44,436 nt of DNA from Balneolales bacterium (lineage in GTDB: Bacteria; Bacteroidota; Rhodothermia; Balneolales; Natronogracilivirgulaceae), in contig SLOL01000018.1 in NCBI GenBank assembly GCA_007132495.1, forward strand, positions 1 through 44,436. Reading direction: 5' to 3'. The position numbers and the translations under genes were made by a program. The notes under the pieces are model-generated. The model was not told the DNA's origin, did not search any database, and worked only from the letters and a program-made list of their open reading frames with translations. Shown in pieces: positions 1,760 through 43,125 of this stretch. The stretch's first letter is position 1. The number at the start of each line of letters is the position of its first letter.

Positions 1760-1879
1760 GTGTTTAAATGTTTGGATTTATTTCGTCAGATGAACCGAAG
1801 GTCACGAAGTGAAATGACATGACCGTATTTAATCATACGCCTGTGTGACCGGGCGGATGCCCGGTCATGTGCATTTCAT
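1760..1879 (-). repeat. Structured leader repeat, unit R1 (before rmlA)
   Basis: A 120-bp unit lying between the rmlA start codon and position 1879, both bounded by TTTCATnTGTTTAA on the plus strand. Inside, plus-strand AATGACATGACCG (1813-1825) can pair with CGGTCATGTGCATT (1862-1875), leaving one bulged G. A proximal hairpin ACCGGGC-GGAT-GCCCGGT shares the same 3' arm. The loop has TTTAATCATACG and TGTGTG, the core found in all copies. Like unit R2 it has an extra ~20-bp segment (GAACCGAAGGTCACGAAGTG) missing from the tandem units at 21981-22276. On the minus strand the unit opens with ATGAAATGCACATGA, a 4-codon mini-ORF. Confidence 0.85.
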
Positions 1880-9376: not shown

Positions 9377-10099
9377 TTAAGTGTTGGGGTGTGCCGGGTT
9401 CGGCCGGCTGCCCCACAATTTTTTAAGTGCAATCTGTTGTATGTCATACAATCCCGGCTCCATGGTATCCAGTTCGTTCGATACCTGTCTGGCGGTCCAA
9501 AGCGCACCGGATGCGAATATTTTCCGGTCACGTGCCGAATGTGTGACCGTGATATTTTCAAAAGGGGTGTTCAGAGTCAGGGTATGCTCACCGATGACAT
9601 CCCCGGTACGTTCCGAAGTAATGGTAGCGGGCTGATCCAGCCATTCTTTCCAGACAAGAGCGGTACCACTCGGAGCATCCTTTTTATGGGTGTGGTGCAC
9701 TTCATGAATGGAAAAGGAGAGATCATTATACAATGTACCGGCTTTGCCGAGAATATTGATCATCTCGTGCATAATATTCATACCCAGACTGAAATTATTG
9801 GCATGAACCCATACCCGTCCAAGTTCTTTGAGTTTCCGGGAGAACGCCTCCCTCCCTCCGGGCCATTCGAAACCTGTGGATCCGGCTACCACCGGCATAT
9901 CCACGGCCAGGAGCTCCGGTATATATTCAAGAAAAGGTTCACCGGGAAGAAAGCTGATAGCTATGTCGTGTCCGGTCAAGCCGGACCTATCCGGTGGATT
10001 ATAAATATCAAATGGTGTAATGGATACTCCGGAGTCCTCACCGGCGAGTTGCAGAACTTCGCCACCGGTTTTTCCTGTTCCAAGTAGTGCAATTTTCAT
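9377..10099 (-). CDS. dapB: 4-hydroxy-tetrahydrodipicolinate reductase
   Basis: 240 residues, in the shorter range for DapB. The Rossmann motif is GTGKTGGEV at residues 7-15. The active-site block EVHHTHKKDAPSGTA (about 133-147) holds the catalytic His and Lys residues. It reduces hydroxy-tetrahydrodipicolinate with NAD(P)H. First gene of the lysine/DAP cluster (dapB-dapA-dapD-aminotransferase). Its ATG is at the boundary of structured repeat unit R2, so the whole proximal leader of this operon is repeat DNA. This makes it a good candidate to test whether the element controls expression. Confidence 0.95.
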   Translation of the reverse strand: MKIALLGTGKTGGEVLQLAGEDSGVSITPFDIYNPPDRSGLTGHDIAISFLPGEPFLEYIPELLAVDMPVVAGSTGFEWPGGREAFSRKLKELGRVWVHANNFSLGMNIMHEMINILGKAGTLYNDLSFSIHEVHHTHKKDAPSGTALVWKEWLDQPATITSERTGDVIGEHTLTLNTPFENITVTHSARDRKIFASGALWTARQVSNELDTMEPGLYDIQQIALKKLWGSRPNPAHPNT

Positions 10100-10257
10100 G
10101 TGTTTAAATTATATGTATCACAATGTCACATGAACCGAAGGTCACGAAGTGAAATGACATGACCGTATTTAATCATACGCCTGTGTGTCCGGGCGCATGC
10201 CCGGTCATGTGCATTTCATCTGTTTAAAAATTTACGACCATAAGGTCACATGTAATA
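10100..10257 (-). repeat. Structured leader repeat, unit R2 plus truncated second unit (before dapB)
   Basis: A full 120-bp unit (10100-10219) runs from the dapB ATG to the next TTTCAT boundary. It is nearly the same as R1, including the extra segment GAACCGAAGGTCACGAAGTG. Outer stem AATGACATGACCG / CGGTCATGTGCATT; inner CCGGGC-GCAT-GCCCGG, where the loop has a base change from R1. From 10220 the sequence goes on as the start of a further unit (CTGTTTAAAAATTTACGACC, then ATAAGGTCACATGTAAT) and then decays at about 10257, so a second unit was once there or was copied in part. Confidence 0.85.
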
Positions 10258-10899
10258 ACATAATACCGGTATCCTTAAAAAATGTAACATGATTGTATCA
10301 CTATTTCGTATACAACGTAAATGAAATACCTTACAGGATTCTTTCCAACAGGATCCACCGGTAAAATATTTTTGCTCATTACAAGTTTTCAATACACCTG
10401 CAGAGCAGCATGTCACACACCGACAACTGACAGCGATCCTGTGAAGGGCGGTGAAGAAGTCGAATCGCTGTAGCCTGAAAAGCAAGATTCGCTCCTAAAG
10501 CACTCCACGATCAGCTCGTATGCAAGCTGCGTGACAGTTCCAGGGATTCACCCCATGGACCCAACATTCCCGGGAGGCCGTTCTCCCGCAATGCTTCGGC
10601 AAACGCCCCCTGGCCATCGGTCATCAGCTTTCCTTGCGTGGAAACAGGCACCTCGCGATGATTACCTGACGTTTGCACCTCTTCAGGTTTCGTGAAACTT
10701 AGGGATAAAATCAGCTAACTTCAACATAAAAACTCAGTAGCTTGACCGGGAACAGAATCCTTTGTTATCCGCTTAATTATTTTTCTAATCCGGGAAACTC
10801 CCGGATTGCCTTCATAGCAAACTGTGTAACCGTAAACCACCGGTAGCATATTGTCACTATATTTCAGATAATTAATTTCCATCCATAACACCATTATCC
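10258..10899. other. Long intergenic region upstream of dapB and of the CPBP gene
   Basis: About 640 bp with no convincing gene. Apart from the possible remnant at 10511-10717 (separate entry), I see only short spurious frames. A segment at 10480-10500 (minus strand AGTGCTTTAGGAGCGAATC) shares AGTGCTTTAGG with the 28-bp repeat near glnS; this may be chance. Promoters of the divergent dap operon and CPBP gene should lie here, but no clear TTG/TAnnTTTG pair was found. Confidence 0.4.
10511..10717 (-). pseudogene. Possible coding remnant without a good start
   Basis: The minus strand has about 66 open codons, ending at a TGA (10513-10511), with protein-like composition: FTKPEEVQTSGNHREVPV followed by TQGKLMTDGQGAFAEAL and ENGLPGMLGPWGESLELS. 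It has no well-placed start (internal ATG only) and is richer in G+C than the flanks. I do not recognise the family. It could be a decayed gene end, part of a mobile element, or a structured non-coding stretch that happens to be open. Confidence 0.25.
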
Positions 10900-11148
10900 A
10901 TGCAACAAATTACTATCGGGTTTGCAGAACATAAGCTTCAGCTCATATCTATAGAATTTACGGAGTTGAAGTTTTTTTGTTATGAGTTTGAAGAACATAA
11001 GCTTCAGCTTATATCTGATATCACCGGAGAGGTCAACCTGGATAACGACACATTTGACTACTGCACACAGGAGGAGCATCCATGTGGAAAGCGTAATCGG
11101 ACAGAGCTCTATCCATATTCCGGAAAATGCATAACCGGAAACGTATGA
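10900..11148 (+). CDS. Small hypothetical ORF with three 11-residue repeats
   Basis: 82 codons, ATG at 10900, TGA at 11146-11148, two bases before the likely ATG (11151) of the CPBP gene; this spacing would allow translational coupling. Residues 7-39 are three 11-residue units (GFAEHKLQLIS, IEFTELKFFCY, EFEEHKLQLIS) encoded by 33-bp units at 10918-10950, 10951-10983 and 10984-11016; units 1 and 3 are almost identical, unit 2 has diverged. The repeat can be read open on the other strand too, so coding is not proven. No family recognised. It may be an upstream coding leader for the protease gene or just repeat DNA with an open frame. Confidence 0.35.
   Translation: MQQITIGFAEHKLQLISIEFTELKFFCYEFEEHKLQLISDITGEVNLDNDTFDYCTQEEHPCGKRNRTELYPYSGKCITGNV
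10918..11016 (+). repeat. 33-bp triple repeat upstream of the CPBP gene
   Basis: Units at 10918-10950 and 10984-11016 share 25 consecutive positions with one change (AGAACATAAGCTTCAGCT, then C/T, then ATATCT). The middle unit 10951-10983 keeps the phase and the coding pattern but has diverged. Each unit contains the imperfect palindrome AAGCT-TC-AGCT. Confidence 0.8.
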
Positions 11149-11150
11149 CC

Positions 11151-11777
11151 ATGTCTGAAGAAAATCAGGAACTGTCCAATTTAAAAATAATCACTTCCGG
11201 ATCCGGATTATTCCTGCTGTCGCTGGTTTCGATGGGCATATATACTGCCTTAACCCTGATCATACTGCATCTATTTCATGAAGCCTCGATAACATCGCTG
11301 TTCCGGCACGGGCTCGGTGTTCCTTTGCAGCTTCTGACCGGTACGCTGTTTGGTCTGATGGCCGCAATTTCCGTATCCTGGATGATGTTTCGTACTGTTA
11401 TTGCCGGTATTTTGAAGGATTACACCATTGTAAGACTGCTTTCCGATATACACCTTTCGCGTTTTGACCGTATCCAGATTTCGCTTTTTGCCGGTGTGGG
11501 AGAAGAGCTGCTCTTTCGCGGCGCCCTTCAGCCCCTGATCGGAATCTGGCTAACCTCACTGCTGTTTGTGGGACTGCATGGTTATTTCAAGTTCAAATCG
11601 CTCAAGCACATCGCATTCGGACTCTCCATGTTTGCCCTGAGTGTAGGTCTCGGACTGCTTTACGAGTGGGCCGGGTTGCTTGCTGCCATAACCGCACATG
11701 CCGTCTATGACCTTGTCATGCTGCAAATCGGTCAAAGATTCGGTTTCGGTACGATTAAAACAGCACAACATACGTGA
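11151..11777 (+). CDS. CPBP-family intramembrane metalloprotease
   Basis: 208 residues from the ATG at 11151 (MSEENQELS...); ATGs at 11127 and 11145 are in frame but less likely. Several hydrophobic segments span most of the protein. Motif EELLFRGAL (GVGEELLFRG) has the paired glutamates and Arg of the CPBP/Abi (CAAX protease and bacteriocin-processing) family. The later FVGLHG and ITAHAVYDL carry the further metal-binding His residues. Family members are membrane proteases whose substrates are mostly unknown. It lies convergent to the ABC permease with a heptamer repeat between them, and behind a small repeat ORF that ends two bases before it. Confidence 0.9.
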   Translation: MSEENQELSNLKIITSGSGLFLLSLVSMGIYTALTLIILHLFHEASITSLFRHGLGVPLQLLTGTLFGLMAAISVSWMMFRTVIAGILKDYTIVRLLSDIHLSRFDRIQISLFAGVGEELLFRGALQPLIGIWLTSLLFVGLHGYFKFKSLKHIAFGLSMFALSVGLGLLYEWAGLLAAITAHAVYDLVMLQIGQRFGFGTIKTAQHT

Positions 11778-18502: not shown

Positions 18503-18898
18503 ACTATGATATCCGTTTGTTTAGATTCTGGTTCCCGGCAGGCCTGTACCGGCATCGTCAGACACTGCACCATGCGGAATAATCGGTTGGTCCGGGAAGA
18601 CGAATAGAGCAGGCATATCACGTATTGGTTAACGGGACTGCCTGCACTTACTCCATCCCGGGCAAGTCAGAATAAGATATAATTCAATAAATTTCCTGAT
18701 AAAATTATGCCAAAAATTATTCACTGCAACCCCGGTCTCTAAATGGTTACTGAATCATCCGATAATTTTTTTTATTTAACAGACTAAATACCCAAGACCG
18801 GACATGTGCCCGGTACTGGACATTTCATCTGCCCCTGTTTTATCACTATCATTCATACGTACGAACAACCAGCAATAATTCAAACCTCAGACTTTGCC
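18503..18898. other. Intergenic region between divergent trpB2 and ytoQ
   Basis: About 395 bp. It is AT-rich near 18670-18790 and should carry both promoters; no consensus promoter pair is convincing. It holds a degenerate copy of the leader repeat (18773-18828). The plus-strand frame open from 18806 runs into ytoQ but begins inside that repeat and is not family-like. Confidence 0.4.
18773..18828 (-). repeat. Degenerate copy of the structured leader repeat (R5)
   Basis: CCGGACATGTGCCCGGTACT followed by GGACATTTCATCTG (18798-18831 region) aligns without gaps to the 3' half of the other units (CCGGGCGGATGCCCGGTCAT followed by GTGCATTTCATCTG) with about eight differences in some 35 positions, and TATTTAA lies at the matching distance upstream. 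The left outer arm and the TGTGTG core are not kept. It lies 270 bp upstream of trpB2 on the minus strand, not against a start codon. Confidence 0.5.
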
Positions 18899-20237: not shown

Positions 20238-21734
20238 TCAGGCCGGCATATCGGGCAGATCCCATCCGCGGCGATATTCGGTTCTGACGAGCCCTTCGGC
20301 GAACTGCCGTGCATTGATCGGATCGGTCATATCCCGTTCAAAGATGGGGTGTCCACCTTCAATACGGAAGCCGTCTCTTTCAATGATACGGATCTCTTCG
20401 TTATCTCCGATATTGGTGAACCGCATGTTCTGTCCATCCCACTCAAGCTCTTTTTGCAGCTCTTGCAGGCGAACGGCCAGTACACCCATAACGACCATTT
20501 CGTTGAACGGTCCGGCGACGTCGAAAGAGGACTTGCACTCGGTACGTGTTTCCGGGCTCTCCTTGCAGGCACGGACCCAATCCATATAGTGATCGGTTTC
20601 CACCCGCCGTTCGGTCTGCGGCACAGAAGGCTCGTTACCGGAAAGCAACCAGGGATCAGCACCATAGCAACCGGCAACCAGGGTATCTTTAGTGCCATAG
20701 AAAAGAATGGCGCCACCCCTGTGATTCATATCACGGCCGGGAGGCCATCCTTCGGGCTTGAGCGGCTCAATACCACCATCATACCAGTCAACTTTGACTT
20801 CAGGGAGGTTACCCAGTCTTTCGCTGTAACGCTCCGGATAGGTCAGCTGAACTTTCTGAGCGGTTGGAGCCGAGTCCTTCAGCAACATGGTTGAACTGCC
20901 CTGTACCTTGGTCGGATATCCGAGATCGAGCCCTTTGAATACCGGATCCAGAATATGGCAGGCCATATCGCCCAGTGCGCCGGTGCCGAAATCCCACCAT
21001 CCACGGAAATTCCATGGAGTGTAAATTTCATTATATGGACGCATCGGAGCCGGACCAATAAACAGATCCCAGTCCATCGTTTCAGGAACCGCTTGCACCT
21101 CTTGCGGTGTGTTGAGTCCCTGAGGCCAGATCGGTCGATCCGTAAACGATTCCACATGGGTGACTTCCCCAATAACATCGTTGGCGATCCATTCCATCAT
21201 CAGATTGGTTCCTTCATCGGAAGCACCCTGATTTCCCATCTGGGTAGCCACCTGATACCGCTCGGCCAGTTTTGTCAACAACCGGGATTCATATACGGTA
21301 TGCGTCAGGGGTTTCTCCACATAGACATGTTTGCCCATGGTGATGGCATGAGCAGCCACAGCGGCGTGTGTATGGTCGGAAGTCGCGACCACAACGGCAT
21401 CGATATCATCCCCCATTTCATCATACATTTTCCGCCAATCCCAATACCTTTTGGCATTCGAAAAGTGCTCAAAACAATCTCTGGAATAGCGCCAGTCCAC
21501 ATCACACAACGCTACGATGTTCTCGCTCTCCATGGCCCGGAGAACCGGAAAACCGCGACCGCCAACACCGACGCCGGCTATGTTCAGCCGGTCACTGGGA
21601 GCCCGATGGCCGAGGCCACTGACGACATAACTGGGCAGTATGGTAAAACCTGCGGCCGCAAAAGCGCTTTTCCCAAGAAAATCCCGTCGGGAGATTCCGT
21701 TATTTTGTTCTTTTTGATCCATATTATTCTTCAT
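20238..21734 (-). CDS. Gfo/Idh/MocA-family oxidoreductase with Tat signal
   Basis: 498 residues. The N-terminus has a twin-arginine export motif SRRDFLGKSAFAAAGFTIL (about residues 14-32), so the protein is likely folded in the cytoplasm and exported to the periplasm. Then a Rossmann NAD(P) domain: IAGVGVGGRGFPVLRAM, ALCDVDW, VVVATSDHTHAAVA and the EKPLTHT motif (EKP, catalytic Lys) of Gfo/Idh/MocA proteins. The C-terminal half (PWNFRGWWDFGTGALGDMACH with ILDPVF) is typical of a large Bacteroidota/Planctomycetota subgroup linked to sugar or glycoside oxidation; substrate unknown. Stands alone, followed by a strong terminator. Confidence 0.92.
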   Translation of the reverse strand: MKNNMDQKEQNNGISRRDFLGKSAFAAAGFTILPSYVVSGLGHRAPSDRLNIAGVGVGGRGFPVLRAMESENIVALCDVDWRYSRDCFEHFSNAKRYWDWRKMYDEMGDDIDAVVVATSDHTHAAVAAHAITMGKHVYVEKPLTHTVYESRLLTKLAERYQVATQMGNQGASDEGTNLMMEWIANDVIGEVTHVESFTDRPIWPQGLNTPQEVQAVPETMDWDLFIGPAPMRPYNEIYTPWNFRGWWDFGTGALGDMACHILDPVFKGLDLGYPTKVQGSSTMLLKDSAPTAQKVQLTYPERYSERLGNLPEVKVDWYDGGIEPLKPEGWPPGRDMNHRGGAILFYGTKDTLVAGCYGADPWLLSGNEPSVPQTERRVETDHYMDWVRACKESPETRTECKSSFDVAGPFNEMVVMGVLAVRLQELQKELEWDGQNMRFTNIGDNEEIRIIERDGFRIEGGHPIFERDMTDPINARQFAEGLVRTEYRRGWDLPDMPA

Positions 21735-21980
21735 TTAATCCGAAGTTTAAGTGACTGATTCTACAATAGTAACAATATTAATTAATAAACTTTTGGTATT
21801 ACATAACCGTTCATCTTTGGGAATCTAACGATAAAAAAAGCCGTTTGCAATGAATGTCACGGTTTCTGCGATGTTTACAGGGTTATTTTACAATTTATAA
21901 CCTGTCGTCCGGTTGTTCAGACAGGTACCATGCCTCCCAAATTTCATTCTTTTTTTTCCTGTATTCAGCGTTACTTTCAT
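21735..21980. other. AT-rich upstream region of the Gfo/Idh gene
   Basis: About 245 bp between the Gfo/Idh start and the triple repeat array. No coding frame. TACTATTG on the minus strand (near 21766) is a poor match to TAnnTTTG. With the array and 22277-22381 it makes up a divergent promoter region of about 650 bp shared with kbl. Confidence 0.4.
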
Positions 21981-22276
21981 ATGTTTATAATTTTAGAACC
22001 TGTCGTCATATGTAATGCCCATGTCGATTATAATCATGCTTCTGTGTGGCGGATAGCCGCCATGGGCATTTCATGTGTTTAAATTATATGTATCACAATG
22101 TCACATGTAATGACATGACCGTATTTAATCATACGAATGTGTGTCCGGGCGGATGCCCGGTCATGTGCATTTCATCTGTTTATAAATTTACGACCATAAG
22201 GTCACATGTAATGCCATGACCGTATTTAATCATACGCATGTGTGTCGAGGCGTCGGCCCGGTCATGGGCATTTCAT
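21981..22276 (-). repeat. Tandem array of three structured leader repeats (R3a-R3c)
   Basis: Units end at successive TTTCAT boundaries: 21981-22074 (94 bp), 22075-22175 (101 bp), 22176-22276 (101 bp). All have (T)AATCATrC...TGTGTG. R3a has outer stem AATGCCCATG / CATGGGCATT and inner GGCGG-ATAG-CCGCC. R3b has AATGACATGACCG / CGGTCATGTGCATT and CCGGGC-GGAT-GCCCGG. R3c has AATGCCATGACCG / CGGTCATGGGCATT with a weakened inner stem. Arms change together between units. Between units lie CGACCATAAGGTC (a small hairpin) or a ATGTATCACAATGTCAC spacer. The array is 240-540 bp upstream of the Gfo/Idh start in the orientation used by the other copies, and 105 bp upstream of kbl in the opposite orientation. 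Confidence 0.9.
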
Positions 22277-22381: not shown

Positions 22382-23569
22382 ATGTACCGGAATCTGAAAG
22401 AAGATCTTCAAACCGAACTCTCATCCATCAGAGATGACGGTCTCTATAAATCTGAACGAATTATTACTTCGCCGCAGGGTGCCGTTATTGGCACCGACGA
22501 CGGTAAAAAGGTTATCAATTTTTGTGCCAACAACTACCTCGGTCTTTCGTCGCATCCCCGGATCATGGAAGCGGCCAAACGAACTATGAACCGTTACGGG
22601 TACGGCATGTCATCGGTTCGGTTCATATGCGGAACACAGACCATCCACCGTGAACTTGAAGAGAAAATCGCTGAATTTGTAGGGACGGATGATGCCATCC
22701 TCTATGCGGCCGCATTTGATGCCAACGGCGGTGTTTTTGAACCGCTGTTCGGTCCCGAAGATGCCATAATTTCCGACCAGCTCAATCATGCTTCCATCAT
22801 AGACGGGGTCCGGCTCACCAAATCGCGCCGCATGGTCTACAAACATAACGATATGGCCGACCTGGAGGAGAAACTCAAGGAGGCTTCCGACGCCCGCCAC
22901 CGGATCATTGCCACCGACGGGGTCTTTTCCATGGACGGAACCATTGCGCAACTTGATGCCATTTGCGATCTCGCCGACCGTTACGACGCTTTGGTGATGT
23001 CCGATGAATGCCATGCAACCGGTTTTGTCGGGAAATCGGGACGCGGCGTACATGAATACCGCGAAGTGATGGACCGGGTTGACATTATAACCGGTACCTT
23101 TGGAAAAGCACTGGGTGGCGCCTCAGGCGGATTCACGGCCGCACACCAGGAGATCGTTGATCTGCTTCGCCAACGATCCCGCCCCTATCTCTTTTCCAAC
23201 TCCCTGGCCCCCGCTATCGCCGGAGCATCCATCGAGGCCCTGGAGTTAATCGCAACGGACAGCGAACTCCGGAATCGTCTGGAAAAGAATACACGGTACT
23301 TCCGTTCCGAGATGACCGAAGCGGGATTTGATATCAAGTCAGGTGAACACCCCATCGTTCCCATTATGCTGTACGACGCCAATGTAGCCCAGCAGTTTGC
23401 TTCCGACCTGCTTGATGAAGGAATTTATGTTACCGGCTTTTACTATCCGGTAGTACCCAAAGGTCAGGCGCGCATACGAGTGCAGCTTTCCGCCGTCCAT
23501 GAACAAGAGCATCTGGACCAAGCCATAAACGCATTCCGGAAGATTGGAAAAAGGGTTGGAATAATGTAA
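22382..23569 (+). CDS. kbl: Glycine C-acetyltransferase (2-amino-3-ketobutyrate CoA ligase)
   Basis: 395 residues, the family length. Alpha-oxoamine synthase signatures: [15 protein letters not shown] near residue 41, [12 protein letters not shown], the PLP-binding [15 protein letters not shown] and the Schiff-base lysine in [13 protein letters not shown] (about K241). It cleaves 2-amino-3-ketobutyrate with CoA to glycine and acetyl-CoA. A threonine dehydrogenase gene follows 85 bp downstream, so the pair forms the two-step threonine-to-glycine route; this context favours KBL over the related serine palmitoyl- or 7-keto-8-aminopelargonate synthases. No Shine-Dalgarno motif at the start. Confidence 0.94.
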
Positions 23570-26011: not shown

Positions 26012-29000
26012 CTAACGTTGTTTGCCGACGGGCATCGTAAACTCCAGCCCTTTCTCAAACAGCTCCCGGCGATGCCGTGATATGCCAATCACGATCACCG
26101 GCACAACAAACAGGGTGAGTAGTGTGGCGAATGCCAGTCCCCCGATCACCGATTTGGCCAGCGGACTCCATGTTTCCGAACCGACACCGAGCTCCATGGC
26201 AAGCGGAATCATGGAGAATATGGTGGTCATCGCCGTAAGAAGTATGGGGCGCATGCGGCGTTTACACGCCTGCAGAAAAGCAATGAGATATACACGTTCC
26301 GGTATCCGTTTGCCGGTCTGCAGATGCGATTCCTCCTCTTCACTATCCGAACCGGAGACTTCGTCTGTAAAGGATTTTTCACGACCCGAGGCCGGCACGT
26401 TCCGGCTGCCACCTGTTTGCTGATGGATGTAATCAACCAATACGATCCCGTTGTTAACCACAATGCCCACCAGGATCACAATACCGATATAAGCCGGTAC
26501 ACTCAGAGGTGTTCCGGTGATAAAAAGAAACAGAAGCGAACCGAAAAAGGCCATCGGTACGATAAACATAATTATGAAGGGATCCCGGAAATTTTCAAAC
26601 AGTGAAGCCATAACCATATAGGTCAGCAACAGAGCAAACAGAAAAGCAAACCCCATTTGGCGGGCGCTGTCGTCCTGAAAGCGGGTCCTTCCACTGAAAT
26701 CATAACGATACCCGTCCGGTAGCACAATATCGCTGGTGATAATATCATCGATAACACGCCTGTACTGATCCGGTTCGGCCTGAGTCATGATACTCATATC
26801 CAGTACCAGTTCCCGGTCCCGCCGTGACAAACGCTGCAAGCTTTCATGCAGCTCAAAGGAGCCCAACGCCGTAATCGGCACTCTGGATTCATCCAGCTGA
26901 AGCAGTTCCAGATGGAACATATCTTCCCGGTTTTGGAACCGGTCGCGTTCATTGCGCACTTCAATAGGTATTTCGCGTCCCTCTTCCCGATAGTAACCGG
27001 CCCTGCTGCCGCGGGCCTGGGTGCCAAACGCATTGGCCACTTGCATGGTGGGAACGTCCAGCCTTGCAATTCGTTCTCGATCGGGATGAAACTCAAACTC
27101 CGGACCTGGCCGTGTCCGCGGATTGGAAACCGACATCACTTCAGGCTCCTGCAGCAGTCGTTCTTCGATGCGATAGGAGATATCACGCAACGTTTCCATA
27201 TCGGATCCATATAATGTTAGCTGGATACCACGGGGGCCCCATCGTCCTCCCCGCATACCTCCCGGACCGGAGCCGGCCACCGATATATCAAGTTCCACAT
27301 CCGCATCATCAAACCGCTCCTCGACCTCCATTATGACGTCATCCGTTGATTTTCTGCGTTCCCGCTGATCTACCAAAAGCACATTCATTTCTCCGAGATT
27401 GCTTTGCGACGACCAACGCTGCCGGCCGATACTGGTAATAACAGTGCGTATTTCGGGCATATCAAGCAGTTCATCGGTATAGCCACGCAGCCGATCCGCA
27501 GTGGTGCTAAGCTGGGTTCCGGCCGGTAAATCAACACGCATCCTGAATTCGCCGGTATCGCTTTCCGGGAAAAATTCCCCCGGAATGGTCCTGAACAGGA
27601 AAAAGGAGCCTCCTATAACTCCAATGACAAACAGTATTACCACATACTTGCGGCGCAAAATCCAGAACAGAATTTTTCCGTAGTTATTTTCCACCAGGCT
27701 GATCAGCCGGAACATCCGTGTCTGCTTTTCAAACTGATCTTTTTTCAGAATCAGCGAGGCCAGAACGGGAATGAGTATAATGGAGGCGAGAAAAGAACTT
27801 GTGATAGCGATGGAAATGGTCAGTGCCAGATCGCGGGTAACCGTTCCGGTTATGCCGGTAACCCCCAGAATGGGGATGAATACGGCCAGGGTCGTCAGTG
27901 TGGAACCCAGAAGCGCCCCTGCCACTTCGTTGGTACCATCAAGCGCTGCCCGAAACCGGTCCTCTCCCCTGGCCAGCCTGTTGGCAATGCTTTCAGTGAC
28001 CACAATGGAGTTGTCCACCAACAACCCGATCGCCAGTGCCAAACCGGTGATGGAGATAATATTCAGGGTGATATCGGCAAAATACATCGCTGCAAACGTG
28101 GCGGTAATCGATACGGGAATACTCATGGCCACCACAAAAGCGATACGCCACCCCCCCATGAACAGCAGCAGAATCAGCACAACCACGGTTAAAGCGATCA
28201 ATGCCGACTGAGCCAGATTATTGATGGAATCCTGGATAAAGTCCCCCTCATTACTCAGGACCTGCATCGTGATACTGGAAGGAAGCAGATCCCCCATGCC
28301 CTGCATTTCACTGATGACATCATGGGCGACATCCAGCGTATTGGCATCAGACTGCTTCTGAATCTCAACGGTCACGCTGTTATTACCATTCACTTCCTCG
28401 ATGGAGTTGATATCCGCGTAGGTGTTTTCAACATTGGCTACATGAGCTACCCGTATGGGAGTGCCGTCCTCGCCGGTTCTGACCACCGTCTGTTCGATTT
28501 CAGACAGGGACCGGTACACGGACTGGGCACGCACACTGTAACTTATACGATCGGTAACCAGATTTCCGATAGGCTGGTTGACATTATTTTGCTGTATCGC
28601 CGATACCACTTCGGAGGGGACTACCCGGTGTCTGCTCATGGCCGCCGGATCCAGGCTGACGTAAAAGTTACGCCGAAGTCCGCCCTGGGTTTCGGCTGAA
28701 GCAACACCGTGCAGCCGTTCAAATCGTGGTTCAATAAGATCTTCAGATAGCTGACGCAGCTCATCAAGACCAAGCACCGAAGACTCGATACTGATCTGCA
28801 TAATGGGTGCACGATCCGGGTCAAACTGAAAGATCACCGGATCATTGGCATCGGTCGGAAGCTGTGGGCGTATCCGGTCGAGTGCCTCGCGCATTTTCAT
28901 CTCGGTATACTGCACTTCGGCACCGGGCTGAAGTTGCATAATAATAAAAGCGCCACCTCTTCTAACGTTGGATTCCACCTGATCCACACCTTCCACACCC

Positions 29001-29224
29001 ATGATGGCGCCTTCGATGGGCTCGACGACCAGCCGTGACATGTCATCCGGCGCCACATTGGAGTAGTTAACCGAGACGGCAAGAACCGGGATGTTGAATT
29101 CCGGCATCAAGGTTATTTTCAGGTTGGCCAATGAAAACAGGCCGAAGCCGACCACAAGCAGCGACATCATGAAAACCGTAACCGGCCGCTTCAGAATCCG
29201 CTCTGTTATGGTGATCTTTTTCAT
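26012..29224 (-). CDS. RND efflux transporter, inner-membrane pump (HAE1 family)
   Basis: 1070 residues, full length for an AcrB-like pump. The first helix (VTVFMMSLLVVGFGLFSLANL) and the TM4 motif LAIGLLVDNSIVVTESIANR contain the proton-relay Asp (a VDN variant common in this group). Two large periplasmic loops have the usual VNYSNVAPDDMSRLVVEP and FSGRTRFQDDSARQ segments. The last helix set contains VVNNGIVLVDYIHQ. Works as a trimer with the adaptor encoded at 32674-34116. It follows a second RND gene (29335-32670), and its start codon lies at the edge of repeat unit R4, which fills the gap between the two. No outer-membrane channel gene is in the window. Confidence 0.95.
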   Translation of the reverse strand: MKKITITERILKRPVTVFMMSLLVVGFGLFSLANLKITLMPEFNIPVLAVSVNYSNVAPDDMSRLVVEPIEGAIMGVEGVDQVESNVRRGGAFIIMQLQPGAEVQYTEMKMREALDRIRPQLPTDANDPVIFQFDPDRAPIMQISIESSVLGLDELRQLSEDLIEPRFERLHGVASAETQGGLRRNFYVSLDPAAMSRHRVVPSEVVSAIQQNNVNQPIGNLVTDRISYSVRAQSVYRSLSEIEQTVVRTGEDGTPIRVAHVANVENTYADINSIEEVNGNNSVTVEIQKQSDANTLDVAHDVISEMQGMGDLLPSSITMQVLSNEGDFIQDSINNLAQSALIALTVVVLILLLFMGGWRIAFVVAMSIPVSITATFAAMYFADITLNIISITGLALAIGLLVDNSIVVTESIANRLARGEDRFRAALDGTNEVAGALLGSTLTTLAVFIPILGVTGITGTVTRDLALTISIAITSSFLASIILIPVLASLILKKDQFEKQTRMFRLISLVENNYGKILFWILRRKYVVILFVIGVIGGSFFLFRTIPGEFFPESDTGEFRMRVDLPAGTQLSTTADRLRGYTDELLDMPEIRTVITSIGRQRWSSQSNLGEMNVLLVDQRERRKSTDDVIMEVEERFDDADVELDISVAGSGPGGMRGGRWGPRGIQLTLYGSDMETLRDISYRIEERLLQEPEVMSVSNPRTRPGPEFEFHPDRERIARLDVPTMQVANAFGTQARGSRAGYYREEGREIPIEVRNERDRFQNREDMFHLELLQLDESRVPITALGSFELHESLQRLSRRDRELVLDMSIMTQAEPDQYRRVIDDIITSDIVLPDGYRYDFSGRTRFQDDSARQMGFAFLFALLLTYMVMASLFENFRDPFIIMFIVPMAFFGSLLFLFITGTPLSVPAYIGIVILVGIVVNNGIVLVDYIHQQTGGSRNVPASGREKSFTDEVSGSDSEEEESHLQTGKRIPERVYLIAFLQACKRRMRPILLTAMTTIFSMIPLAMELGVGSETWSPLAKSVIGGLAFATLLTLFVVPVIVIGISRHRRELFEKGLEFTMPVGKQR

Positions 29225-29317
29225 GTGTTGATATTTTTTTATTTAAGGACACATGTAATGTCCATTACTAATATAATCATGCTCTTGTGTGACGGTTTGC
29301 CGTCATGGCCATTTCAT
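29225..29317 (-). repeat. Structured leader repeat, unit R4 (between the two RND genes)
   Basis: 93-bp unit from the RND start codon (ATG 29224-29222) to the next TTTCAT boundary. Outer stem AATGTCCAT / ATGGCCATT with a single mismatch; inner stem TGACGG-TTTG-CCGTCA, unlike R1 or R3a in sequence but pairing in the same place. The core ATAATCAT...TGTGTG is kept. The tail CTGTTTAAAATTTA (29318-29331) repeats the context before the RND start. Thus the element is inside an operon, between two cistrons. Confidence 0.85.
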
Positions 29318-36271: not shown

Positions 36272-36520
36272 TCCTTCTCCTGTTATTTTTAAATTTCAAT
36301 TAGACACGTTGAAAGCAATACATCGGCATTTGCAATGGTGAAAGTGTCATTACAATTATTCCATCGCAATTTAACAAAAATTTTCGCCTGGGCTACCTAT
36401 CCACTCAACAATAACCGAATACAGTGCATTCCCGCACTTAAGCGCAACCGTACATGATCGATCACCGGATACAACGAGTGACGAAGTTGCCTCCCGGAAG
36501 CAACGGATGTCGGAGTGCTA

Positions 36521-36617
36521 GCCGGACATTACGGATGTATAAACCCTTGCCGGATGCAACGGATGTATAAACCCTTGCCGGATGCAACGGATGTATGAAC
36601 GCTTGCCGGATGCAAAA
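36521..36617. repeat. 28-bp tandem repeat, about 3.4 units
   Basis: Units GCCGGATGCAACGGATGTAT plus AAACCCTT at 36521-36548, 36549-36576 and 36577-36604, then a partial unit to about 36617. Unit 1 has a few changes (GCCGGACATTACGG), unit 3 has GAACGCTT. The repeat is GC-rich in contrast to the AT-rich DNA after it. Minus-strand reading is open, but this is probably not coding. Confidence 0.85.
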
Positions 36618-38405: not shown

Positions 38406-38530
38406 CCGGCATCACAAATTCACTTCCGGCCAATCAGGCCAGCGGAATTTACATCCGGTATCGCGGACCATACGGGGTGCCGTCACGCTCGACCAGTATG
38501 AAACAAATCCGGCATCACAAATTTACTTCC
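38406..38530. repeat. Direct repeat carrying a copy of the receptor gene's 3' end
   Basis: A 22-bp sequence (CCGGCATCACAAATT, then C or T, then ACTTCC) occurs at 38406-38427 and at 38509-38530. The second copy covers the last codons and stop of the TonB receptor (EVNL*); the first copy, 103 bp downstream on the minus strand, still encodes EVNL and a stop. One mismatch only. Confidence 0.8.
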
Positions 38531-40701
38531 AGTCCGGCGCGGACCCAGCGTCCCGGCTGAGGGACATTGGCGATGTCAAAATAGCGGGTATCCAGGGCGT
38601 TGGAAGCCTCCCCGAATAGCCGCACCACGCCGATTTCATAAAATAGAGTGAGGTTCACCATCCAGAACGGTTCAAAAGGTCTTGTATCCGTAAATTCACC
38701 ATCCTCAAAAAGCATATAACTTCCGGCGCGATCCTGCCATGATGCCGATGTGCGGATCCCTGCCCGCTCGGTAACCCGGAGGGAGAGGATCAAATCCAGT
38801 TTGTGATTAAGATGATCCAGGGCGTAGTTGGAGATAAAATCACCGCTTTGTTTATTTGCATGCAGATAAGTGTACTGTATGGAGAAGGTGCTTGCGGGCG
38901 ATTTAAATCCGGGGCTAGCGCCTGAGTCTGAACCTGTTCCTGAGTCTGAGTCTGTTCCTGAGCCTGAGCCTGTTCCTGAGTCTGAGCCTGTTCCTGAGTC
39001 TGAACCTGTTCCCGAGCCCGAACTTGATCCGGAATTCGTCTCCATACCCGGTGCTGCCCCCCGAATGCCGGTTAAGCTCCCCAACGGAATGGTAATTCCT
39101 GTCTCGACACCGCTGGTGGTAACCTCGGTGAGGTTTTCGCTCCGCCAGAGGTCATCGCCCGGACTGCGAATCCAGTCGATCATGTTGCTTCCCCATCGCC
39201 GGAAAACGGCCACATCGAACTGCACTCCCCGCCGACTGCCTTTCACCCCGGTCTCCACCGATACGGCTTCTTCGGGCAGGAGGTCGGGATTGCCCAGGTT
39301 ACCCGGACCGCTGTAATAGAGATCGGTAAAAGTCGGAAGCCTGAGGGTTCTATTGGCCGTGGCATACCATCGCAACTGTTCATGAAACTGCCATCCGAGA
39401 TCGACACCGGGAAAAAGTACAGGCCGGTCGAGATCGGTATTGGTGTATATCAATGTACCGGCCGAAAGCGAAAAAGGGCCGTGGGCAATCGATTGTTCAA
39501 GCATCAGGCTCAAGCCGCTCCGGTCATAGGCATGGGTGAACCAGGCATCGTCATAGCCGGAGACCCTCCGGGGCCCGGACATGGGTTCTCCAAGTACATT
39601 ACTGTATATATGCTCATAGCGATAGTCAAGGCCCACGGAGCTGGTTCCCAGACGGTTGATATGCGCCCAGTTCAGAGAGGCGCCGACGATATCGGTCCGG
39701 TGGTAATTGTGCCCCTGATACCAGTCGGGGGCTTCATGGCGAAACAGTTCGAAGCGGTCGTGATGCCGCCGCCAGTAGACCGTCGGAGTCAAATGAGGCG
39801 AGCCCTCCGGAAGCCATCGAAGCGAAGCAAAACCCGAGCGGGTATGTTCAAATTGATCGGGAAACCTCGGTGTGTAGAAGCTGTTGGCTCCGAATGCTTT
39901 TTCATTATATCCGGCCTGGAGGTCGAGTCGACCGGAATCCAGGCCGAGCTTTGAGCGATAAAAGAGGTTGCCGGTAGTAAAATCAGTATTGTCGGTAAAC
40001 CCGTCGCTGGTCATACCGTTAACGGAGAGGTGGTGGGTCAGCGGTCCGGTGCCGAAACCGGTTGCGATTCCGGCCGATCCGAAACCGTGCTGGCCGCCGG
40101 TGATTGAAGCGCTTAACCGGGGATCGCCCGGCTCTTTGGTGATGATATTAACAGCGCCGTTGAAAGCGTTGGGACCAAAAATCCGTGCACCGGGTCCGTG
40201 GAGCACCTCGATACGCTCAATACTTTGCAGGTCGACCGGCACATTGAGGTTATGATGGCCGGTCTGGGGATCGGTCACATTCACACCGTTAAGGAGGATC
40301 AGCGTCTGGTCAAATGTGCCACCCCGCACACTAACATCCGACTGCATCCCGTAGGTACCCCGGTGCCGGATATCGAGGCTTCGGATCTGTGAAAGCAGTC
40401 CGGCCAGATCATGCGAGGCTGATTCGCTGATAAACTGCCTGTCGAGTACCCGGATGGACCGGCGAAGATCCGAATGACGCACCGGGACGCGCTGTGCACT
40501 GATGACCACCTCTTCCAGATCGCGGGTCAGTACCGTATCGGGCGAGACTACGATGCGGGGCTGATCGGCCTCCGGTTTCATGTACGCATTTTCTGAAACC
40601 GATCCAAAGTATGAAATCTCTTTGGCCATCACTCCGCTGTCCGGCGATAAAAACAGCAGCATAGCCATGCCCCAAAAAAAAGGAATCTTTATAAAGCGCA
40701 T
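38515..40701 (-). CDS. TonB-dependent outer-membrane receptor (BtuB-like)
   Basis: 728 residues from the ATG at 40701; the open frame reaches 40761 but the inner start begins a signal peptide (MRFIKIPFFWGMAMLLFLSP). A plug domain follows: LEEVVISAQRVPVRHSDLRR, DVSVRGGTFDQTLILLNGVN and IERIEVLHGPGARIFGPNAFNG, then IITKEPG, the marks of this family. The rest is a beta-barrel of about 22 strands. Similar proteins take up cobalamin, siderophores or other large ligands; the ligand here is unknown. An 18-bp repeat encodes a Gly/Ser/Thr/Asp tract in one barrel loop. It lies 139 bp downstream of glnS, and a copy of its 3' end is duplicated downstream. Confidence 0.92.
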   Translation of the reverse strand: MRFIKIPFFWGMAMLLFLSPDSGVMAKEISYFGSVSENAYMKPEADQPRIVVSPDTVLTRDLEEVVISAQRVPVRHSDLRRSIRVLDRQFISESASHDLAGLLSQIRSLDIRHRGTYGMQSDVSVRGGTFDQTLILLNGVNVTDPQTGHHNLNVPVDLQSIERIEVLHGPGARIFGPNAFNGAVNIITKEPGDPRLSASITGGQHGFGSAGIATGFGTGPLTHHLSVNGMTSDGFTDNTDFTTGNLFYRSKLGLDSGRLDLQAGYNEKAFGANSFYTPRFPDQFEHTRSGFASLRWLPEGSPHLTPTVYWRRHHDRFELFRHEAPDWYQGHNYHRTDIVGASLNWAHINRLGTSSVGLDYRYEHIYSNVLGEPMSGPRRVSGYDDAWFTHAYDRSGLSLMLEQSIAHGPFSLSAGTLIYTNTDLDRPVLFPGVDLGWQFHEQLRWYATANRTLRLPTFTDLYYSGPGNLGNPDLLPEEAVSVETGVKGSRRGVQFDVAVFRRWGSNMIDWIRSPGDDLWRSENLTEVTTSGVETGITIPLGSLTGIRGAAPGMETNSGSSSGSGTGSDSGTGSDSGTGSGSGTDSDSGTGSDSGASPGFKSPASTFSIQYTYLHANKQSGDFISNYALDHLNHKLDLILSLRVTERAGIRTSASWQDRAGSYMLFEDGEFTDTRPFEPFWMVNLTLFYEIGVVRLFGEASNALDTRYFDIANVPQPGRWVRAGLEVNL
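38921..39028 (-). repeat. 18-bp coding repeat in the TonB receptor
   Basis: Six successive 18-bp units (plus strand CCTGAGTCTGAACCTGTT and close variants) at 38921-38938, 38939-38956, 38957-38974, 38975-38992, 38993-39010 and 39011-39028. On the coding strand they give GTGSDS-type hexapeptides. The changes are mostly silent or Asp/Gly swaps, so the reading frame and charge are kept. Confidence 0.9.
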
Positions 40702-40819
40702 AACAGCACGCCTCTTATTTATAAACGGTCCTTTGTCACCATCTGGAAGTTGCGTATCCATATGTCCAATATCTACAGTCCATTTGCATTACCTGTTCAG
40801 TACTGTAAGATAATCATAC

Positions 40820-40852
40820 GAAGAAGAAATACGCACCCGTTATTTCTTCTTC
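40820..40852 (-). terminator. Hairpin overlapping the glnS stop codon
   Basis: Minus strand GAAGAAGAAATA and TATTTCTTCTTC form a perfect 12-bp stem with a 9-nt loop. The upstream arm is the last Lys codons plus stop of glnS (ATG AAG AAG AAA TAA), so the terminator is built from coding sequence. The stem is mostly A/T, so it is of moderate strength. Confidence 0.6.
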
Positions 40853-42552
40853 ATTTTGGCCCAGGTATCACGGAGGGTGACGGTCCGGTTGAAAACCGGC
40901 TTCTCGCGGGTGGAATACTTGTCCGGATAGTAGTACCCCTTGCGCATGAACTGGAAATACGGCAGGTTGTCGCCCGACTTCTCCGTTGAGGCAAAATCAT
41001 CCGCCAATGCGGGTTCAGCGCAGGCGGCCGGAGCGATATTCAGGCTATCGGGGTTCACATAATCAGTGAATACTCCCTCCTGCTTTGCGGCCTCCTCGAC
41101 CGGTTTCTCCACATTGAAAAGCCGGTCATATTCGCGGACTTCGATGTGGTGTACATGCGGAATGCTGACCCAGTGCAGCGTCCCTTTGGCCTTGATTCCG
41201 GAGTTGTCGCTGCCGCTGCGGCTTTCGGGGTGATACCGGCAATGGACTTCGGTCACATTCCCGCCGTTGTCCTTGACAAAATCATCACAAGTGATGATAA
41301 AGGCGCTTTTCAGCCGTACGTTGCGTCCGACAGCCAGACGGAAAAACTTTTTGGGCGGATCCTCCATGAAGTCGGCCCGTTCGATGTAGAGTTCGCGGCC
41401 GAACGGAATCATCCGGCTGCCGGCGGTTTCATCCTCGGGGTTATTCTCGCTTTCCAGCTCTTCGAATTTGTCTTCGGGCCAGTTGGTGATCACCAGTTTG
41501 ATGGGATCAAACACCACCATCCGCCGCAACGATATTTTGTTGAGGTGCTCCCGGGCGCAGAACTCCAGCAGTGACACATCGATCAGGTTATCCCGTTTGG
41601 CAACGCCGATACGGGTGCAAAAATCACGAATGGCTTCCGGAGTAAAGCCGCGGCGACGTAATCCGGAGATTGTCGGCATGCGGGGATCATCCCAGCCGTC
41701 CACGTACTTCTTTTCCACCAATTCCCGCAACCGCCTTTTGCTCATGATAGTATACGACATATTAAGCCGGGCGAACTCATACTGTTTCGATGGAAAGAGC
41801 TCCAGTTTGTCAATAAACCAGTCATAGAGCTCTCTGTGCGACATAAACTCAAGTGTACAGAGTGAGTGGGTGATTTTTTCGATGGCGTCGCTTTGTCCGT
41901 GAGCCATATCGTAGGTCGGATAGATGCACCATTCATCACCGGTGCGATGATGGGAAGCGAACTTGATGCGATAGATGACCGGATCCCGCATCAGCATATT
42001 AGGCGAGGCCATATCGATTTTAGCGCGGAGGGTGCGGGTCTCCTCCTCAAACTCACCGGCACGCATCCGCCGGAAAAGATCCTCGCTCTCCTCCGGGTCG
42101 CGATCGCGATACTGGCTGTCGGTACCCGGCCGGGTCGGGGTTCCCTTGCCGGCGGCGATCTCCTCCGAAGTAGAGTCATCGACATAGGCAAAACCCTTGC
42201 GGATAAGCCGGATGGCAAACTCGAAAAGCTGTTCAAAATAGTCACTGGCGTACAGCTCCTTCGCCCATTCATAACCGAGCCAATTGACATCATGCTTGAT
42301 GCTCTCAACATACTCGATCGTTTCGGTGACGGGATTAGTGTCGTCAAAACGCAGGTTGGTTTCGCCGCCGTATTTATCGGCCAGACCGAAATTGACCGAT
42401 ATGGACTTGGCGTGTCCGATATGCAGATAGCCATTCGGTTCCGGCGGGAAGCGTGTGAGAACCGATGAGTGCCTGCCCTCCTTCAGGTCACGTTCAATAA
42501 TTTCTTCCAGAAAATTTTTGGAGTTTCGTTCCTCTGCGGTGTTATCGGACAT
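40840..42552 (-). CDS. glnS: Glutaminyl-tRNA synthetase
   Basis: 570 residues. Class I signature HIGHAKS (H44-H47, in PNGYLHIGHAKS), the second class I motif as MSKRR in IMSKRRL (about residue 270), LRFDDTNP, and an anticodon-binding beta-barrel C-terminal half ending near NRTVTLRDTWAKM. It matches bacterial GlnRS (E. coli-like length 550) and not GluRS. Charges tRNA-Gln directly. Upstream, five copies of a 28-bp repeat stand between the start and a candidate promoter; the terminator overlaps its 3' end. Confidence 0.96.
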   Translation of the reverse strand: MSDNTAEERNSKNFLEEIIERDLKEGRHSSVLTRFPPEPNGYLHIGHAKSISVNFGLADKYGGETNLRFDDTNPVTETIEYVESIKHDVNWLGYEWAKELYASDYFEQLFEFAIRLIRKGFAYVDDSTSEEIAAGKGTPTRPGTDSQYRDRDPEESEDLFRRMRAGEFEEETRTLRAKIDMASPNMLMRDPVIYRIKFASHHRTGDEWCIYPTYDMAHGQSDAIEKITHSLCTLEFMSHRELYDWFIDKLELFPSKQYEFARLNMSYTIMSKRRLRELVEKKYVDGWDDPRMPTISGLRRRGFTPEAIRDFCTRIGVAKRDNLIDVSLLEFCAREHLNKISLRRMVVFDPIKLVITNWPEDKFEELESENNPEDETAGSRMIPFGRELYIERADFMEDPPKKFFRLAVGRNVRLKSAFIITCDDFVKDNGGNVTEVHCRYHPESRSGSDNSGIKAKGTLHWVSIPHVHHIEVREYDRLFNVEKPVEEAAKQEGVFTDYVNPDSLNIAPAACAEPALADDFASTEKSGDNLPYFQFMRKGYYYPDKYSTREKPVFNRTVTLRDTWAKMKKK

Positions 42553-42555
42553 GAA

Positions 42556-42695
42556 AAAGTGCTTTAGGTTAGAAAGTTGATTCGAAGTGCTTTAGGTTAG
42601 AAAATTGATTCGAAGTGCTTTAGGCTAGAAAGTTCATTCGAAGTGCTTTAGGTTAGAAAATTGATTCGAAGTGCTTTAGGCTAGAAAGTTCATTC
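42556..42695 (-). repeat. Five tandem 28-bp repeats in the glnS leader
   Basis: Units at 42556-42583, 42584-42611, 42612-42639, 42640-42667 and 42668-42695. Consensus on the plus strand is GAAGTGCTTTAGGyTAGAAA followed by rTTsATTC. Units 3 and 5 (GGCTAG, GTTCATTC) are identical, as are 2 and 4 (GGTTAG, ATTGATTC); unit 1 is like 2 with one change. Unit 1 ends at the glnS ATG with only three bases between. So most of the leader is repeat. Confidence 0.95.
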
Positions 42696-43125
42696 GGGGT
42701 TACTGATTTGCGAATGTTATTGATTCGCGGATTTTGAATTTCGGGAGTGCTACTCTCCAAGTGCATTAAATATTCCAAAGATAGCCATTAAAAAGGAGAA
42801 CACCATTCATGCAAGCGTGAAAACCGCAGCGACGATGTGATTCCATTAACCCGGGTATCTGACTCAGTTAAAGCCAAGCGGTGCGATGAATATGGCGTAT
42901 TTCCAAAACACTTGCCTAAAAATATGTAATACATTATTCTATGATAAAGATACAAAAAGGGAAAAATGGGTATAAGAAGAGCACACACGGGCGGAAACAG
43001 TAAGAAGGGAGTTGAATAATAGTATCGTTGAGAAGCAAGTAATTCGTCCGTGATATGCCTGTGTTCTGACTGTGACTCACAAGGCGGAGCTATAACCTAA
43101 GGGTGGGAAAACCGGCTTTTATGAG
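42696..43125. other. Intergenic region between glnS and the integron integrase
   Basis: About 430 bp. It contains the candidate glnS promoter (separate entry) and a small inverted repeat GCGAAT-GTTATTG-ATTCGC near 42711-42735. No tRNA, attC-like or coding structure was found, and nothing identifiable lies just downstream of the integrase. Confidence 0.45.
42776..42783 (-). promoter_or_regulatory. Candidate -7 box of the glnS promoter
   Basis: TATCTTTG on the minus strand fits the Bacteroidota -7 consensus TAnnTTTG exactly. A matching -33 TTG at the usual 17-23 nt is not evident (nearest TTG is about 28 nt upstream). If used, the transcript would start near 42770 and carry all five 28-bp repeats in its 5' leader. 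Confidence 0.35.

Follow-up and report, generated by a model that had tools for sequence, protein, structure and literature searches.

A dispersed repeat in the genomes of Balneolales is a new, non-autonomous mobile repeat that targets start codons. An array of three of its units lies in the stretch of DNA analysed here (44,436 nucleotides, contig SLOL01000018.1, hereafter the window). We consider it very likely that the repeat is a mobile DNA of about 101 nt which inserts 3' of the sequence TTTCAT and regenerates its target, and whose units nest. A literature search retrieved no description of such a repeat, and this dispersed repeat of the Balneolales is undescribed.

The array in the window

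The three units of the window array lie head to tail on the minus strand. Unit 1 (21981..22074, 94 nt) is gene-proximal and belongs to the short-stem subtype GCGGCTATCCGC; it is followed by unit 2 (22075..22175, 101 nt) and by the distal unit 3 (22176..22276, 101 nt). The boundaries proposed in the initial annotation proved exact, and a covariance model of the family matched all three units at E = 1e-8 to 2e-22 (1.1e-8, 1.9e-22 and 5.2e-15 for units 1, 2 and 3, respectively). The target-side flank of the array is the proximal junction ATGAAA at 21975..21980 on the minus strand, which reads TTTCAT on the plus strand. Both flanking genes were also confirmed: a Gfo/Idh-like gene (20238-21734, minus strand) on one side and, on the other, a plus-strand gene (22382-23569) whose product has a class I/II aminotransferase fold and fits kbl. 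The units had been read on the plus strand, where they start with NTGTTTA and finish with CATTTCAT; the coordinates of that reading hold, but the minus strand is the better reading of their orientation. Most of the other copies form the leader of a minus-strand gene.

Units 2 and 3 are 80% identical and unit 1 is more distant, in agreement with the earlier statement that the stems differ between units. The change described for the unit labelled R3c, from ACATG/CATGT to CCATG/CATGG on both arms, was also correct. A copy on a different contig, C173, matches unit 2 at 99% identity, and the closest relative of unit 3 lies elsewhere in the genome. The ORF that begins at the ATG at 21980 is only 30 aa long. 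The window array is thus an atypical copy that sits at an ATGAAA without a sizeable ORF, and for this reason it is probably without consequence at its site.

Other copies in the window are fused to genes. A single minus-strand unit carrying a 20-nt CGAAG module (1760..1879) is fused to the start codon of an NTP transferase gene (rfbA-like, 1034-1759), and a second single unit with the module (10100..10219, minus strand) to that of dapB (9377-10099), with a truncated unit upstream of it. A single unit of the short subtype (29225..29317, minus strand) is fused to the start codon of an AcrB-type transporter gene (26012-29224). A weak unit-like match at 18753-18828 on the minus strand (E 0.013) is probably a decayed unit.

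Upstream of dapB a lysine riboswitch (10490-10691) and the unit at 10100-10219 are placed in series on the minus strand, the unit being wedged between the riboswitch aptamer and the start codon. In some units one arm contains the inserted 20-nt module, AACCGAAGGTCACGAAGTGA, made up of two CGAAG mini-hairpins. The module lies at 1792-1811 and 10132-10151 in the window and at 27 sites in genome G000 and 28 in G003; a variant in G007, ATCGAAGATCACGAAGTG, has both sides of the first mini-hairpin changed. Three further tandem repeats were observed in the window: about five copies of a 28-bp sequence, AAGTGCTTTAGGTTAGAAAGTTGATTCG, at 42557-42724, directly upstream of the start of a minus-strand gene (40840-42552); about three copies of a second 28-bp sequence, CCGGATGCAACGGATGTATAAACCCTTG, at 36494-36605; and six copies of an 18-bp sequence at 38903-39046, inside a long minus-strand ORF (38515-40761).

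Sequence and distribution of the repeat

Read on the minus strand, the unit starts with ATGAAATG and ends with AAACASATGAAA, and the alignment gives the layout ATGAAATGNCCATGACCGGGC....GCCCGGACACACAGGNGYATGATTA..CGGTCATGGNCATTACATNTGAC...TTTAAACAN'ATGAAA. The left end, which is fixed, reads TTTCAT, ATGAAA in reverse complement. When two units served as queries in a plain DNA search, the genome of the window gave 39 matches and nine further genomes from the home family gave 3-45; the covariance model found at least 87-95 copies per genome in six genomes. Copy number ranges from dozens to at least 90 per genome in this family of soda-lake-type bacteria. The genomes sampled were mostly draft MAGs; the repeat was present in 26 of 245 genomes of the class and in 17 of the 20 genomes of the home family, with low counts scattered over three further families. 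Genome G106, from a different family of the order, carries at least 12 copies, which suggests horizontal transfer or patchy loss. Among named public contigs, the closest that carries the repeat is SKNL01000233.1, from a Balneolales MAG, and a search of plasmids, phages and viral contigs gave no match.

Fusion of units to start codons

The 147 distinct arrays, from 17 genomes and drawn from regions chosen around repeat matches, contained one unit in 87 cases, two in 38, three in 17 and four in 5. A recognisable ATG was found at the end of 129 of these arrays, and at 95 of the 129 ends this ATG was the start codon of an ORF 60 aa or longer, compared with about 6% expected by chance. ATGAAA was read at 111 of the 129 ends, against a baseline of 10.9% (74 of 680) for long ORFs from the same sequence. 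About a quarter of the arrays, including that of the window, were not at an ORF start. The assignment of start codons relied on open frames, supplemented for purQ and rfbA by ortholog alignment. The genes fused to units share no theme: those named by sequence are rfbA-like, dapB and the AcrB transporter, and others, to judge from their N-termini, are presumably purQ, aroQ, plsX, topA, mnmG, ftsK and the genes of ribosomal proteins L31 and L34.

Empty and filled sites

In the family comparison the gene upstream of purQ was joined to it by a short spacer in nine genomes, and six genomes carried one to three units precisely at the start codon of purQ; among the 15 genomes whose upstream region was readable, 6 had a filled site, with units of differing subfamilies. 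Both states were found within a single genus, the site being empty in G012 and G008, filled in G011 and occupied by two units in G022 and three in G027. The empty site of G012 reads ...CTGACCCCATACACCTATC|ATGAAATTCGGAG and the filled site of G011 reads ...CTGATCCCATACATCTGGT|ATGAACCGAACATGG...AAACAC|ATGAACTTCGGAG; the insertion, of 100 nt, lies exactly at the ATG and the upstream flank is intact. The rfbA orthologs showed the same empty and filled pattern. At the phytoene desaturase gene a single unit is present in G025; in G024 the ortholog of that unit occupies the distal position and a second unit lies between it and the gene. Units at orthologous genes belong to different subfamilies. Copy number thus differs at orthologous genes, and empty and filled sites occur in the same genus.

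Insertion is precise, with the upstream flank intact and ATGAAA left on both sides. The proximal junction read ATGAAA in 89 of 102 cases. In the 13 arrays with a second codon other than AAA, the variant codon was never found at the distal junction (0 of 13), and no target duplication is therefore detectable at the insertions. The distal ATGAAA behaves as part of the element and the proximal ATGAAA as the target. The exception is purQ in G011, where ATGAAC stands at both junctions and might be interpreted as a duplicated target.

Growth of arrays

The median identity of adjacent units was 0.63-0.80, depending on the genome, and that of random pairs 0.65-0.77; the closest relative lay elsewhere for 87 of 97 array units. 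Neighbours resemble each other no more than random pairs do, and most array units have their closest relatives elsewhere; arrays accordingly grow mainly through independent insertions, one after another, and only rarely by local duplication. Only four adjacent pairs were more than 95% identical, and at rfbA in G011 two units are identical. Each insertion restores the target, so that the gene keeps its start codon, the same site can be struck again and unrelated units pile up. The view that the window units are not simple recent duplicates was borne out by the copy of unit 2 on another contig. An origin by slippage, which had been named as one of the results that would speak against the initial reading, was seen in few arrays only, such as the rfbA pair of G011.

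Folding of the units

Single units folded on both strands (z -1.7 to -3.3). The start-codon stem showed exchange between G-C and C-G. The N/N' pair beside the start codon covaried in part: it was Watson-Crick in 95 of 132 units (GC 50, CG 43, AT 2), and mismatches included GG in 23 and CC in 9. A ACACACAGG..ATGATTA loop was conserved in the units, and the small inner hairpin (GTAT..ATAC) showed no consistent pairing across them. Selection on an RNA should favour G-U over A-C. In the P1 and P2 stems of the 132 units, read on the mRNA strand, departures from Watson-Crick pairing comprised 57 G-T (G-U) and 54 A-C, a comparison that rests on the alignment and whose outcome remains compatible with effects on translation. 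As G-U was not in excess over A-C, an RNA function is without support from these data. The stem differences between the window units, which had been called compensatory, are real, and turnover of palindromic DNA subfamilies fits them as well as compensatory RNA evolution does. The stem changes also fit palindromic DNA decaying after insertion.

A search of the units against Rfam gave no family at gathering score. The potC RNA motif (RF01751), which has a hairpin similar in size to one on unit 1, matched that unit at 20.9 bits against a cut-off of 44 and on both strands, and was rejected as a chance hairpin; matches of units to miRNAs were rejected likewise.

Candidate helper enzymes

Y1_Tnp (PF01797) was absent from 14 of the 17 repeat-bearing genomes of the family and present in all three repeat-free ones. 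A Y1/IS200/IS605 transposase or RAYT was rejected as helper because its distribution runs opposite to that of the repeat, and the TnpA locus of G003 (L060) was rejected as a source, being without unit-like ends. A reverse transcriptase was rejected since RVT_1 was absent from 15 of 20 family genomes, G000 and G011 included. An IS110 helper was also rejected: a single copy was found within a unit, in G003, and judged a hitchhiker, and homologs occurred in only 4 of 20 genomes. For IS91-type Y2_Tnp there was no match, a weak result since the control set was empty too. The search for an autonomous form, as split unit halves around a gene, returned the IS110 case alone in about 1.5 Mb.

In that case the IS110-family transposase gene (10183-11424) lies inside a unit at 10094-11632 of locus L140, with the unit ends flanking it. 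Related IS110 copies were seen in G002 and a fragment in G024. The IS110 of G003 may target these repeats.

Alternative explanations

If one ancestral unit had been multiplied by replication slippage and its copies had then diverged, the constant 101-nt period and the few near-identical neighbours would be accounted for, but this is a very unlikely origin, since neighbours are as dissimilar as random pairs, and for the window array it is contradicted by the relationship of unit 2. A cis-regulatory leader RNA of riboswitch-like or protein-binding type, governing a regulon and arranged in tandem for steeper regulation, would agree with the location of units in 5' leaders, start codon included, with a fold at z of about -2 whose stem covers the AUG, and with the conserved loop. 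Its presence, however, is patchy at orthologous genes in a single genus, where subfamilies differ; the associated genes are functionally unrelated, some copies lie at no ORF, and there is neither a G-U excess on the mRNA strand nor an Rfam match, so that we regard this explanation as unlikely. Of the two possibilities originally offered for the tandem set, repeated insertion is therefore upheld by the empty and filled sites, the copy-number differences and the unit relationships, and a tandem-acting RNA or protein-binding site is not.

Among mobile elements, REP/BIME/REPIN sequences are, like the present repeat, small, palindromic and extragenic, reach about a hundred copies per genome and are sometimes clustered (PMC3116915, PMC8266576). 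Movement of a REP/REPIN-type element by RAYT, a domesticated Y1, or by a since-lost IS200/IS605 TnpA would also explain insertion 3' of a fixed short target with no detectable duplication, as for IS608 (PMC5934647). We consider this doubtful, though not negligible: Y1_Tnp is lacking from most hosts, among them a 98%-complete genome in 20 contigs with at least 39 copies, recent near-identical copies occur in genomes without it, and the TnpA locus of G003 has no unit-like ends. The repeat also differs from REP/REPIN in the absence of a RAYT from most of its hosts, in lacking the GTAG motif (alignment A1), in its length of about 101 nt, in its head-to-tail copies, direct and not inverted doublets, and in its fusion to start codons. 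Classical DDE MITEs are likewise short, non-coding, multi-copy and palindromic, but the unit ends, TGNCC.../...AAACAS, are not inverted repeats and no target-site duplication is detectable. A retro-element, in which the leader RNA is copied by target-primed reverse transcription from a TTTCAT primer, would agree with truncated copies keeping the gene-side end more often than the reverse (about 13 to 4). This bias is explained by selection for a retained start codon, and with RVT_1 missing from most family genomes such an origin is highly improbable.

Proposed mechanism

In the reading that we consider very likely, the repeat inserts directly 3' of a template-strand TTTCAT, the reverse complement of an ATGAAA start codon. 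Each insertion hands the gene a new start codon, and head-to-tail nesting follows. Movement may take place as folded single-stranded DNA. A single internal segment, CANATGTAATG on the plus strand, could pair with both TTTCAT ends and is a possible guide, the candidate guide segment being ATGTAATG; such guide pairing is plausible, the basis for proposing it being this complementarity, and the GG and CC mismatches at the N/N' pair count against it. In the mRNA, the predicted stem CAUNUG/CAN'AUG could sequester the start codon.

IS608 and ISDra2 have the targets TTAC and TTGAT, respectively, and insert 3' of this fixed short sequence, which is kept in the left flank (PMC5934647). The repeat resembles these IS200/IS605 elements and the PATE-type MITEs in inserting directly 3' of a short target of fixed sequence, in the lack of detectable target duplication, in the folded ends and in the possible guide pairing with both end sites. 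It differs from them in that most genomes bearing it have no Y1 transposase, in its target, the TTTCAT complement of a start codon, in the single internal segment that could pair with both ends, and in the nesting of arrays at genes. By this analogy the repeat would work like an IS200/IS605-derived element, a likeness of insertion logic that does not imply family membership.

Significance

Insertions near a start codon normally damage the gene. Insertion exactly at ATGAAA with regeneration of the target goes together here with about 100 copies in a compact genome and little visible gene disruption. The absence of the known helper transposases points to an enzyme still to be identified. It is possible, though we think it rather improbable, that the repeat represents an unrecognised class of element which targets the translation start via an internal DNA guide, is moved by an enzyme outside Y1, Y2, DDE, RT and IS110, hides the start codon in a hairpin, rewires the translation of many genes and nests. 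Through unit insertion, unrelated genes gain a common 5' leader, and the predicted stem over the start codon suggests that insertions probably alter the expression of host genes. The presence and absence differences within a single genus make both the mobility of the repeat and its effect on expression directly testable.
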